From Haladaptatus sp. DJG-WS-42 (GTDB lineage Archaea; Halobacteriota; Halobacteria; Halobacteriales; Halococcaceae), in the NCBI RefSeq assembly GCF_037198285.1, contig NZ_CP147243.1, positions 1,116,001 to 1,180,000 of the forward strand: a stretch of DNA of 64,000 bases. The letters run 5' to 3'. Positions 34,265 to 52,846 of the stretch are shown piece after piece (the first letter of the stretch is position 1; the number at the start of each line of letters is the position of its first letter). Made by a program: the position numbers and the translations under genes. The notes below the pieces were generated by a model that was not told where the DNA came from, did not search any database, and saw nothing but the letters and a program-made list of their open reading frames with translations.

Positions 34265-35059
34265 ATGAAAGTCCTTGTCACCGTAAAGGAGGTGGCAGAA
34301 GTCGAAGACGAGTTCGAAATTGACGGACTCAAAATCGACGAGCGCTACCTTGACTACGACTTGAACGAGTGGGACGACTACGCGGTCGAAGAGGGTGTCC
34401 AAATCGCGGAGGAAAACGACGACGTCGAAGTCGTCACCGTCACGATTGGTCCAGAGCGCGCAGAGGAGACCATCCGGATGGCCCTCGCGAAAGGCGCAGA
34501 CCGCGCCGTCCGTGTCTGGGACGACGCCCTCGAAGCAGCTGACTTCGTTGACGTCGCCACCAAGACCGACATCCTCGCCGCCGTGGTCGAGGAAGAACAG
34601 CCAGACCTCATCTTGACCGGTGTACAGGCAAGCGACGACGCCTTCGGCGCGACCGGCGTTTCGCTCGCAGACGCCATCGACTTCGAGTGGGCAGCCGTCG
34701 TGAACGCCCTCGACCTCGATGTCGAAGCTGGCGTTGCCAACCTCCGTCGTGAACTCGAAGGCGGTATCGAGGAACTCACAGACGTCGATATTCCAGCCGT
34801 CTTGACCATCCAGACGGGTATCAACGAACCGCGCTACGCCTCGCTCCGTGGCATCCGCCAAGCCCAGAGCAAGGAGATTGCGCCAAAGAGCCTCGGTGAC
34901 CTCGGCCTCGATGCCTCGGTCATCGACAGCGAGATTACCCTCACCTCCATGTACGAACCAGAGTCCGAGAGCGACGCCACCATCTGGGAAGGCAGCGCAG
35001 ACGAGACCGCCGGGAAGCTGGCTGAGTTCCTCCGCGACAAAGGAGTTGGTCAGGCATGA
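34265..35059 (+). CDS. etfB: Electron transfer flavoprotein beta subunit
   Basis: A 264-residue ETF beta subunit that binds AMP in ETFs and carries electrons from acyl-CoA dehydrogenases to a quinone oxidoreductase. It starts MKVLVTVKEV; the 18-residue upstream extension is dropped because it lacks similarity. The ETF-beta stretch PRYASLRGIRQAQSKEI is present. It overlaps etfA by four bases (ATGA), so the two are made in equal amounts. Confidence 0.93.
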   Translation: MKVLVTVKEVAEVEDEFEIDGLKIDERYLDYDLNEWDDYAVEEGVQIAEENDDVEVVTVTIGPERAEETIRMALAKGADRAVRVWDDALEAADFVDVATKTDILAAVVEEEQPDLILTGVQASDDAFGATGVSLADAIDFEWAAVVNALDLDVEAGVANLRRELEGGIEELTDVDIPAVLTIQTGINEPRYASLRGIRQAQSKEIAPKSLGDLGLDASVIDSEITLTSMYEPESESDATIWEGSADETAGKLAEFLRDKGVGQA

Positions 35060-36009
35060 GCGACGTGCTTGCCATCACCGAACACCGCCGCGGCGAACTC
35101 CGCGACGTCAGCTACGAACTCATCACGGCTGGCCGCCAGCTCGCAGACGACCTCGGCGGGGACCTTCACCTCGCCGTCATCTCCGGGGACGTCTCTGGCT
35201 TCGCAGACCACCTCAACCGCGAGGGCGTGGACACCATCCACACCGTAGACGAAGGCGAAGAGTTCAACCACGACGTGTACACGCAGGTTATCACCCAACT
35301 CTACGACGACCTGCAGCCCGGTGCGGTCGTGATGCCGAACTCCGTAAACGGTCTCGACTACGCGCCAGCCGTCGCAAACCACTTATCCCTCCCACTGGTC
35401 ACTGACGCCATCGACTTCGCAGCAGACGGCGCGTTAGAAGTCACCCGCGAGCAGTACGGCTCGAAGGTCGAGACAACCGTGGAAGTCGACGCAGACCACG
35501 TGGCGCTCACCATCCGCCCCGGCGAATGGCCAGCCGCAGAAGGCACGGGCGACGCAGACATCGTCTCCTTCGACGCAAGCATCGACGAGTCCGCCGTCAA
35601 ATCGACCGTCACCGGCTTCGAAGAAGTCGGCGGCGGCGACGTTGACATCACGGAAGCGGACATCCTCGTCTCCGTTGGCCGCGGTATCAAAGAAGAGGAG
35701 AACATCGAACTCGTCGAGAAACTCGCAGACGCCCTCGGCGCGACGCTCTCCTCCTCGCGCCCGATTGTGGACAACGGTTGGCTGCCAAAGAACCGGCAGG
35801 TCGGCCAGTCCGGGAAGGTCGTCACGCCAGACGTCTACATCGCCATCGGCATCTCTGGCGCAGTGCAGCACGTTGCTGGCATGAAGGGTGCAGACACCAT
35901 CATCGCCATCAACACCGACCCGAACGCGCCAATCTTCGACATCGCCGACTACGGTATCGTCGACGACCTGTTCGACGTGGTGCCAGCGCTGACCGAACAG
36001 TTCCAGTAA
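35056..36009 (+). CDS. etfA: Electron transfer flavoprotein alpha subunit
   Basis: A 317-residue FAD-binding ETF alpha subunit. The FAD-domain signature includes SSSRPIVDNGWLPKNRQVGQ, then GISGAVQHVAGMKGADTIIA and INTDPNAPIF. Length and motifs are complete. Its last eleven codons including the stop are copied exactly 154 bases downstream (see the repeat). Confidence 0.94.
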   Translation: MSDVLAITEHRRGELRDVSYELITAGRQLADDLGGDLHLAVISGDVSGFADHLNREGVDTIHTVDEGEEFNHDVYTQVITQLYDDLQPGAVVMPNSVNGLDYAPAVANHLSLPLVTDAIDFAADGALEVTREQYGSKVETTVEVDADHVALTIRPGEWPAAEGTGDADIVSFDASIDESAVKSTVTGFEEVGGGDVDITEADILVSVGRGIKEEENIELVEKLADALGATLSSSRPIVDNGWLPKNRQVGQSGKVVTPDVYIAIGISGAVQHVAGMKGADTIIAINTDPNAPIFDIADYGIVDDLFDVVPALTEQFQ

Positions 36010-36163
36010 CGACCAATTTTTTGGTCCACCGTGAGACGCGACGCGTCTCACGAGCCTTCGCTCGCTGACGCTTGCGAAGACAGACTTTTGCCGTCCGAAC
36101 GCAGTGAGGACGGGAAAAAGGTGGTCGCACGTGGTGCCAGCGCTGACCGAACAGTTCCAGTAA
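35975..36163 (+). repeat. Exact 35-base duplication of the etfA 3' end with intervening spacer
   Basis: The last 35 bases of etfA, from ACGTGG through the TAA (35975-36009), recur perfectly at 36129-36163. The 119 bases between (36010-36128) hold a T-rich hairpin GACCAATTTTTTGGTC (36011-36026), a perfect 10-base inverted repeat with one-base centre (36031-36051), and the stretch CGAACGCAGTGAGG followed by AAAAAGGTG. A T-rich stretch follows the second copy. No start lies near it, so it is not a gene. Confidence 0.85.
36011..36026 (+). terminator. Hairpin with T-run after etfA
   Basis: GACCAATTTTTTGGTC: six-base arms around four T, one base after the etfA stop. Probably the transcription stop for etfBA. 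Confidence 0.45.
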
Positions 36164-42301: not shown

Positions 42302-43294
42302 ATGATTTCGAAGGGCTGCGAACAGTGCGCCAAGGGGGGCAAAATGGTGCTGTTCGTCTATGGATACTGTGACCAGCGAGACTGTTTCTACTGTCCGCTT
42401 GGGGAGAATCGCAAGAACGTGACCCAGGTGTACGCAAACGAGCGGCAGGTCGAGTCCGACGAAGACATCATCACCGAAGCAAAGCGGATGGACGCCCTCG
42501 GCACCTCGATTACCGGCGGCGAACCACAGGAAGCGATGGACAAGACGTGCCGGTACCTCCGCCTCCTGAAAGACGAGTTCGGCGAGGACCACCACACCCA
42601 CCTGTACACTGGGATTACGGGCGGACGCGAGAACATGCGCCGGCTCGCAGAAGCCGGCTTAGACGAGATTCGCTTCCACCCGCCGTACGAGCTCTGGGGC
42701 GACATGCACGGCACCGAGTGGGAAGAAATCCTCTACATCGCCCGCGAAGAAGGCCTCACCCCCGCCTTCGAGATTCCGGGCATCCGCGCAGAACGCGAGT
42801 TCATCGAGTTCTTAGATGAGGGTGCGGCGGATTTCTGTAACATCAACGAGTTCGAGATGAGCGAGGGCAACTACGAGCGCATGCAGGCGGAAGGCTACGA
42901 ACTCCGCGAAGGCCACATGAGCGCCGTCGAAGGCTCCCACGACATCTTAGAAGAAATGGCCGCCCACCCGAAGGTCTACTTCTGTACCTCGGTGTTCAAA
43001 GACGCCGCCCAGCACCGGAATCGCCTGAAACGCATGGCCAAGAACCTCCGCCGCGAGTTCGACGACGTGACCGACGACGGCACACTCGTCTACGGCAAGA
43101 CGTGGATTACGCCCGCAGAACTCGAAGCCCTCGGCGTCCCCGAAGAGTTCTACACCGTCAAAGAGAGTCACGTCGAGATTGCGTGGTGGCTCTTAGAGGA
43201 GATGGTCGAAGACGGTGACGTGGAGAAAGGCGAGATAGTCGAGCAGTATCCAACGGTTGACGGGACTGTGGTTGAGCGGACGCCACTAGCGTAA
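42302..43294 (+). CDS. Radical SAM protein, COG2108-like, CX4CX2C cluster
   Basis: A 330-residue radical SAM protein. Unusually, the cluster cysteines are Cys23, Cys28 and Cys31 (YGYCDQRDCFYCPL), CX4CX2C instead of the usual CX3CX2C. Two more Cys at 6 and 9 could hold another metal or cluster. The sequence continues as in the uncharacterised archaeal family related to pyruvate formate-lyase activating enzymes. The substrate is unknown. Its 3' end is repeated 89 bases downstream. Confidence 0.85.
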   Translation: MISKGCEQCAKGGKMVLFVYGYCDQRDCFYCPLGENRKNVTQVYANERQVESDEDIITEAKRMDALGTSITGGEPQEAMDKTCRYLRLLKDEFGEDHHTHLYTGITGGRENMRRLAEAGLDEIRFHPPYELWGDMHGTEWEEILYIAREEGLTPAFEIPGIRAEREFIEFLDEGAADFCNINEFEMSEGNYERMQAEGYELREGHMSAVEGSHDILEEMAAHPKVYFCTSVFKDAAQHRNRLKRMAKNLRREFDDVTDDGTLVYGKTWITPAELEALGVPEEFYTVKESHVEIAWWLLEEMVEDGDVEKGEIVEQYPTVDGTVVERTPLA

Positions 43295-43383
43295 TCGACT
43301 GAATTTTTTTGTTCGGCTTTTTGCAAGCGAGCGCAGTAAAAAGGTGAGATGGTACGGCTGTCGAGCGGACGCCGCTCGCGTAA
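43274..43383 (+). repeat. Repeated 3' end of the radical SAM gene with spacer
   Basis: The final bases of the gene, encoding VERTPLA and stop (43271-43294), reappear at 43360-43383 as another in-phase VERTPLA-stop. The two copies differ only at three synonymous third positions. The 65-base spacer starts with a T-run and contains GAGCGCAGTAAAAAGGTGAG, similar to part of the etfA spacer. No start codon or coding sequence accompanies the second copy. Confidence 0.75.
43301..43322 (+). terminator. T-rich terminator after the radical SAM gene
   Basis: Two T-runs (seven and five T) separated by GTTCGGC, immediately after the radical SAM stop. Confidence 0.45.
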
Positions 43384-51492: not shown

Positions 51493-51600
51493 CATCCTCC
51501 CCGCCGTGAACGGCGGGGCTTCCCGTGCCGCGTTGGGATATTTATGGTTTGCAGAGGCTCGCTTGTTCAGCGAACGTCCCCTGTCCACTACTCGGGCCGT
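51493..51600 (-). ncRNA. Candidate omega (re)RNA of the TnpB element
   Basis: In characterised TnpB systems the guide RNA scaffold comes from the tnpB 3' end through the right end, and the guide is the adjacent flank. By analogy the scaffold would be transcribed from the minus strand across the tnpB 3' end to 51493, and the guide would be the HTH-10 sequence beyond (to about 51473). The 5' limit is a guess; no expression is known. Confidence 0.3.
51499..51518. repeat. End hairpin of the TnpB element (tnpB 3' side)
   Basis: Stem CCCCGCCG with loop TGAA and CGGCGGGG. It corresponds to the right end of the element, downstream of tnpB, where the guide RNA scaffold of OMEGA systems normally ends. 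Confidence 0.7.
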
Positions 51601-52846
51601 GTTCTCCACGGCGGAACAGGTTGACTGCTGGACGTGCCACACACCCGCTACTCCTATCCTCGGACGACCGAGGACTCAGAGTTACCTTTTCTGCTTGGTC
51701 TATCCGACATCGAATGTTCTCCGCACCATTCGAATCGGCGTTCATCACGGCCCCACACCCACGACAGACGTACAAGCCACGCTCCACACGGTTGGCGTCT
51801 CGCTTTTGCCCACAACACGAACACGTCTTCGAGGTGTCTCGCTCGCTCACCGTAACCACAGCGATGCCTTCGGCTTTCGCCTTGTATGTGAGGAGATTCG
51901 TGAAGCGGTCGAACGCCCACCCGTGCAACCCTTCGTTGCCACGGTCGCCCCAGTTCCGAGCCTCGCCGGTTTCGTCGTCTTCACGGATTCCTTCGAGGTT
52001 ACCAACAGCAATCGTTCCGACACCTCGTTCGACGCATTCAGTGACGATGTGTCTGGTGACGGCGTGCATATAGTGCGACCGACGCTCGGAACGCTTCCGT
52101 CGAAGACGGAGTGCTTTGTTTGACCGAGAGGAGTTGCACTTTGCTATTTCCTTGGCGAAATACCGTTCGTCGGTTTTGAGGGTGTTCCCCGGATACAACT
52201 CGTGGTCGCCCGTGGAATACGCGATGGCGGCGAAGTTCTTGATGCCGAGGTCGATTCCGGCGGTTTCGTCGCCGGGAGACTCGGCTTCGATTTCGTGTTT
52301 GCACACGATGTGGAGTTCCCATTCATCACCATTCCAAATGGCTCGCACTTGGCGAACGTTCTCAACAACAACATCTGGTCGAGTCTCGATTTCGCAGAGG
52401 ATGAAGTCCGACCAGTGTTCTTTCAGGTTTCGGCCTTTGGAGAGGCGAATCCGGTTGTGGTGGGCGTCGTATTTGAATCCGTCTTCTTTGAACGTGACCG
52501 TCGAGCGCGGGTGGTCGCCGTTGTGTTTTCTGTACTTCGGTGGGTTTGCTCGGTCGTCCCCGTTTCGGCGCTTGGCGTACCAGCCACGGAACGCTTCAGC
52601 GAGTTCTTCGATGACTCGCTGACTCGACTGAGAATTGAGGTCGGCGTAGCGTTCGTGGGTCTTCAAGTATGCTTTGAGCGGGCCATCCCCGGGGATTGTC
52701 CCTGTTTCGCTCCAGATGCGGTCGCACGTCCAGCGTGCGATGTTCCAGAGTTTCGAGGCGGCGAACCCGAGCGAGTCCAAGTCACTCATGACCTGTTGCT
52801 GGTTCCTGATGGAAGCAACGTAGGTTCGGGTGACCCGAATCGCCAT
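51542..52846 (-). CDS. tnpB: TnpB, RNA-guided nuclease of the IS605 family
   Basis: A 434-residue TnpB. RuvC residues look intact: Asp199 in GIDLGIKN, Glu285 in GNLEGIRED and Asp371 in NADSNGAENI. The zinc ribbon is CSCC (Cys342/345) and CRGC (Cys361/364). The N-terminal helical region (~1-150) is complete. Such proteins cut DNA guided by an omega RNA and a short adjacent motif. Last ~50 residues are a basic, low-similarity tail. Confidence 0.9.
   Translation of the reverse strand: MAIRVTRTYVASIRNQQQVMSDLDSLGFAASKLWNIARWTCDRIWSETGTIPGDGPLKAYLKTHERYADLNSQSSQRVIEELAEAFRGWYAKRRNGDDRANPPKYRKHNGDHPRSTVTFKEDGFKYDAHHNRIRLSKGRNLKEHWSDFILCEIETRPDVVVENVRQVRAIWNGDEWELHIVCKHEIEAESPGDETAGIDLGIKNFAAIAYSTGDHELYPGNTLKTDERYFAKEIAKCNSSRSNKALRLRRKRSERRSHYMHAVTRHIVTECVERGVGTIAVGNLEGIREDDETGEARNWGDRGNEGLHGWAFDRFTNLLTYKAKAEGIAVVTVSERDTSKTCSCCGQKRDANRVERGLYVCRGCGAVMNADSNGAENIRCRIDQAEKVTLSPRSSEDRSSGCVARPAVNLFRRGEHGPSSGQGTFAEQASLCKP

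Follow-up and report, generated by a model that had tools for sequence, protein, structure and literature searches.

Hairpins between duplicated gene tails at the 3' ends of core genes in haloarchaea

The window analysed here is a 64,000-nucleotide stretch of the Haladaptatus sp. DJG-WS-42 genome (NCBI RefSeq assembly GCF_037198285.1, contig NZ_CP147243.1, positions 1,116,001 to 1,180,000 of the forward strand). At two of its genes the 3' end, referred to as the tail, is followed by a spacer and then by a second copy of the same tail. The features, in window coordinates, are as follows.

35056..36009, + strand: etfA, electron transfer flavoprotein alpha subunit, 317 aa (ORF and family match)
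35975..36009, + strand: etfA tail copy 1, 35 nt including the stop codon (direct repeat)
36010..36128, + strand: 119-nt hairpin spacer of etfA, with a T-run at 36017-36022, then GGTCCACC, and the stem CTTTTGCCGTCC / GGACGGGAAAAAGGTGG
36129..36163, + strand: etfA tail copy 2, 154 bases on, 35/35 identical to copy 1
42302..43294, + strand: radical SAM protein gene, 330 aa (ORF), with tail copy 1 as its functional 3' end
43259..43294, + strand: radical SAM tail copy 1, 36 nt including the stop codon (direct repeat)
43295..43347, + strand: 53-nt spacer between the radical SAM tail copies, a diverged member of the hairpin family described below
43348..43383, + strand: radical SAM tail copy 2, 28/36 identical to copy 1, with 7/8 differences at third codon positions

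The radical SAM protein has a weak match to the NCBIfam family variant_rSAM, below the cut-off (E 6e-4), and orthologues of its gene are present in 33/41 genomes. The gene ends in GTT GAG CGG ACG CCA CTA GCG TAA, and 89 bases on the stretch GTC GAG CGG ACG CCG CTC GCG TAA appears, with three differences that are all at third positions. A sequence-only reading of the window had reported this recurrence of VERTPLA-stop correctly; the seven codons plus stop that it named do recur, but the true repeat is longer, covering 36 nt. The spacer contains a T-run at about 43303-43310, a left arm GCTTTTTGC and a right arm AAAAAGGTG at about 43338-43346. It also holds AAAAAGGTGAG, and the 20-mer GAGCGCAGTAAAAAGGTGAG within it occurs once in the window. 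The same reading had likened this spacer to that of etfA, which is true of the architecture and the end motifs (T-run, CTTTTGC ... GCAGT ... AAAAAGGTG) but not of the overall sequence. Congeners have the canonical TTTTTGGTCCAGCTTTTTGC...AAAAAGGTGG or AAAAAGCTGG at the same position, and among 30 related genomes the radical SAM gene is often followed by a spacer of the same kind and in several by a tail copy.

The second tail copy of etfA runs into sequence that directly follows etfA in the congener G001. Both G001 and G002, which belong to the same genus, present an empty site, without the 154-bp segment and with the single tail kept, and the identity of the flanks to these congeners is unchanged on both sides of the segment. 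The spacer has no second copy elsewhere in this genome and is absent from both congeners. The gene body of etfA was checked for foreign origin and none was seen, its identity to G001 being flat. Elsewhere in the window, at 51542-52846 on the minus strand, an ORF resembles an IS1341/TnpB-type protein (CxxC motifs by eye).

The frequency of tail repeats was estimated for this haloarchaeal genome of 2.78 Mb from 464 kb, including 20 stretches of 20 kb, with genes called by ORF length and codon composition; genome-wide counts are therefore estimates. Among the 429 predicted gene ends scanned, only the radical SAM and etfA tails recur within 350 nt at a level of at least 16/21, whereas 20 shuffles give 0.0 on average. 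A third case lies near C1:1269000, where a 21-nt identical tail including the stop codon is found around a canonical hairpin. The excess of end duplications over shuffles that the sequence-only reading proposed to look for in this genome is present, but the cases are few here (2 in 464 kb plus 1) and the excess is clade-wide. Within a set of 80 haloarchaeal loci the arrangement was found at the radical SAM gene, etfA, etfB and a gene with a DNA polymerase II large subunit-like C-terminus; a match to the DNA polymerase II large subunit family was obtained for the L193 protein. When 3,467 gene ends were taken with no selection for hairpins, from loci centred on the radical SAM gene and hence not random over genes, 17 tail repeats were recovered, 7 of them immediate short tandem repeats at 24-36 nt. 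The remaining ten, spaced by more than 60 nt, all have the hairpin motif (10/10), compared to a background of 1.1% of gene ends within 200 nt. That such repeats are local coincidences is scarcely credible: the small number of cases in this genome speaks for coincidence, but the excess over controls is strong and every tail repeat of the wider spacing carries the motif.

Among 106 distinct hairpins of the strict pattern, the upstream sequence is repeated within 150 nt in 53, compared to 9/316 in cross-paired controls, some of which possibly pair orthologous genes. The repeat is nearly always the 3' end of the preceding gene and begins 0-10 nt past the GGTGG of the hairpin. Tail copy 2 therefore has a near-fixed junction after AAAAAGGTGG and spans 17 to 77 coding nt, in many cases with spacer in addition. 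Tail copies are mostly found at core genes (radical SAM, etfA, nuoI, argF, DNA polymerase II large subunit, sufS, pheT, gatB and dapD). The other 53/106 hairpins have no tail copy; many of these adjoin the end of a converging gene at 0-16 nt, namely 19/27 of those located before a converging ORF. The orientation of the next gene does not divide the two groups, co-directional and converging neighbours being equally common in both.

The common spacer consensus anticipated by the sequence-only reading does exist, but in the form of a hairpin whose ends are constant and whose stem varies. In an alignment of 47 cases it reads TTTTTGGTCCAG[A/C]TTTTT, then a variable GC stem between CGAG and CCGA, then AAAAAGGTGG. 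Three inner pairs of the stem show changes in both partners in 16 to 25 sequences. A first search pattern, CGNRCGCAGTGAG...AAAA, matched etfA only. The strict pattern is positive in 111/293 genomes of the order, with few copies per genome, and the reversed control pattern in 0. A covariance model yields 8 matches in this genome and 9 to 46 in seven other genomes; the two spacers of the window are diverged members of the family and are not among these matches. Some of the matches have other end motifs while their arms are still complementary (GCAAGTTTTT...AAAAAGTTGC), which supports the outer pairing of the hairpin. A search of seven loci against Rfam 15 gave no match at the gathering score. 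The recurrence of tail, hairpin and tail across many haloarchaeal genera, with a common consensus and an excess over controls, bears out the earlier suggestion of a shared mechanism for the two genes. It is noted that the stem base has the form CGAG(G)-Y-GG ... CC-CGA(CGA) (alignment columns ~19-30 and 49-58); tandem G-A pairs with one bulged pyrimidine are conceivable there, and the structure may be a protein-binding motif.

The consensus, the covarying stem and the placement agree with a hairpin that has T-runs at gene ends and serves both strands. From the placement and the T-runs, we infer that the hairpin is probably a bidirectional transcription terminator.

The divergence of the tail copies is informative on how they are maintained. 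In 41 tail pairs, the differences at the first, second and third codon positions number 19, 12 and 86, and third positions account for 93/125 differences in the copy pairs overall. Changed codons are synonymous in 82 cases versus 24 others, or 77%, once the radical SAM pair is added and pairs of poor alignment are dropped. A neutral simulation, in which copy 2 drifts freely and the protein of copy 1 is kept, gives 40% ± 4.6% synonymous with a maximum of 52% in 300 runs, figures whose precision should not be overstated given the simple mutation model and the origin of some pairs from related genomes. An unconstrained, decaying duplicate is thus ruled out by the 77% observed versus the 40% simulated, and copy 2 must either be under selection or be restored again and again from working gene ends. 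The mainly synonymous differences also fit the sequence-only proposal of related but non-identical DNA.

Selection could in principle act on copy 2 itself, if it were read as the gene end after hairpin loss, or translated. The third-position bias, the conservation of stop codons in second copies (38/41) and the junctions common to several genera would agree with such a function, but the frame is constant neither to the hairpin nor to the gene (the spacings of 89 and 154 are not multiples of 3), no constant start codon lies ahead, and some copies have decayed (the second radical SAM tail of G001, that of L162, and tail 3 of G171 with an internal stop). Since the frame is not constant, neither read-through of the hairpin nor initiation at a fixed start is a tenable way of translating copy 2, and we regard a selected function of copy 2 as very unlikely.

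Renewal by exchange is suggested by two comparisons of tail sequences. G142 and G122 carry the nuoI tail haplotypes in opposite positions, the tail closest to the relative being copy 2 in the former and copy 1 in the latter, and the argF tails within G109 differ at residues that are also variable between species. A foreign nuoI gene body was looked for in G142 versus G085 and was not seen, the divergence being confined to the tail. This tail-only divergence, together with the flat identity of the etfA body, leaves whole-gene replacement unsupported. Identical junctions are found across genera at the radical SAM gene, nuoI and argF (AAAAAGGTGG-CTGCCG-GACCAG at argF is common to several genera) and other junctions differ; inheritance and new formation therefore both seem to occur. 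Downstream of nuoI, the gene order past the hairpin unit differs between the congeners G122 (L226) and G142 (L227), and hairpins may be markers of synteny breakpoints.

Empty sites are not limited to etfA. At argF, G071 has one tail followed by the DNA that in G109 follows the third tail, and at nuoI, G085 is without what G142 has. From these three genes it follows that the hairpin plus one tail is a unit that is gained or lost. Arrays of n hairpins with n+1 tails are seen at argF in G220 and G109 and at etfA in L055. In L147 (G220) and L148 (G276), adjacent tail-hairpin units have near-identical tails and spacers and entirely different stems. These stems appear as if swapped as cassettes.

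A mobile miniature element, whose insertion at a gene end makes a long target-site duplication of the tail, would account for the empty sites at etfA (G001, G002) and argF (G071 vs G109), for direct repeats on both sides of the hairpin, for the arrays with one tail in excess and for the constant hairpin ends. However, the repeats range from 17 nt to >100 nt, unlike a target-site duplication of roughly constant length, and in half of the cases the hairpin is without a repeat. By sequence, the etfA hairpin occurs once in this genome, its relatives there being the 8 structural ones; the stems in L147 and L148 are wholly different next to near-identical tails; and neutral decay of copy 2 is contradicted by the simulation. 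Such an element is unlikely. Replication slippage, with the strand slipping back after copying the hairpin and so doubling tail and hairpin in tandem, has in its favour the tandem tail-hairpin repeats in L045, L146 and L193 and the truncated second spacers in L024, L084 and L123. It does not explain why the native flank of etfA is without such a hairpin, which is thus new sequence there, nor why stems differ in adjacent units and divergence is mainly synonymous, and we consider it unlikely.

Considering that the constant hairpin end meets variable positions inside the gene, that an empty site without the hairpin exists and that neighbouring units pair unrelated stems with near-identical tails, we tentatively favour, with a probability of roughly 0.4, insertion of the hairpin by recombination between chromosomes or strains. 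The hairpin with an attached gene 3' end would arrive from another chromosome copy or strain, the gene side being resolved by homologous recombination and the far end of the hairpin being joined inside the resident tail by an end-joining or template-switch step. The resident tail would stay behind as copy 2, giving the order gene, tail copy 1, hairpin, tail copy 2 and native downstream DNA. Afterwards, recombination of the direct repeats would lead to loss, expansion and tail exchange. Together with recombination with hairpin-free alleles, this would explain why either copy still resembles a working gene end. Intermolecular gene conversion, efficient between chromosome copies, is described for polyploid Haloferax (PMC8223754), and repeat-mediated deletions are reported for haloarchaea (PMC3119063). 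It should be mentioned that the half of the hairpins without a tail copy speaks against recombination, as do the gene bodies of etfA and nuoI, which bear no foreign mark, and the lack of a consistent direction between G142 and G122, and that the genus-spanning identical junctions at the radical SAM gene, nuoI and argF could instead be old copies kept alive.

A bolder, rather doubtful proposal is that the hairpins form a gene-end element class of their own, settling at the 3' ends of core genes with the host's last codons copied on the far side. Such a hairpin could come and go by recombination without damage to the gene, and its tails would persist as coding alleles open to exchange. In either case the arrangement is a recurrent, class-wide feature of core-gene ends. 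Should recombination be the source, the paired tails are a record of earlier tail exchange, from which the amount of recombination between chromosomes or strains could be estimated; should an element be the source, it has an insertion route beside essential genes without harm. Both possibilities can be tested in the genetically tractable Haloferax.

No known element class tested fits the tail-hairpin-tail arrangement, and it was found nowhere described in the open-access literature searched. The pattern seems undescribed and suggests that gene ends undergo some form of recombination. Taken by itself, the hairpin would form a new family within a known kind, the terminator-like gene-end hairpin; what we could not assign to any established kind is the pairing of this hairpin with a duplicate of the gene before it, whatever that gene is. 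This judgement follows from the misfit with the classes tested and from a limited open-access literature search, and would be weaker if plain recombination were the explanation.

T-stretch transcription termination is established in Haloferax volcanii, and the accessible text of that study (PMC7237163) describes T-runs after the stop codon and hairpins near some ends, as here, where the hairpins between converging genes often adjoin the opposing stop, with one T-run per strand. Its accessible portion describes neither a GGTCCAG/GGTGG hairpin family nor a duplicated gene tail. The MITEs and PATEs of Haloquadratum are likewise short non-coding palindromic insertions, and direct repeats there flank strain-specific DNA that is lost by repeat recombination; in the excerpts of that report (PMC3119063), however, most of the repeats are shorter than 20 bp and they are not presented as gene tails, with neither a constant hairpin-tail junction nor synonymous divergence reported. 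Bacterial REP and BIME palindromes are also extragenic hairpins with variable stems after genes, whereas the hairpin here, by the strict pattern, is present in few copies per genome and is flanked by a copy of the host gene end. Compared by description, integron attC sites share an imperfect hairpin with a variable loop directly after the stop codon; unlike attC, the haloarchaeal hairpins are located at scattered core genes, with the gene tail duplicated.
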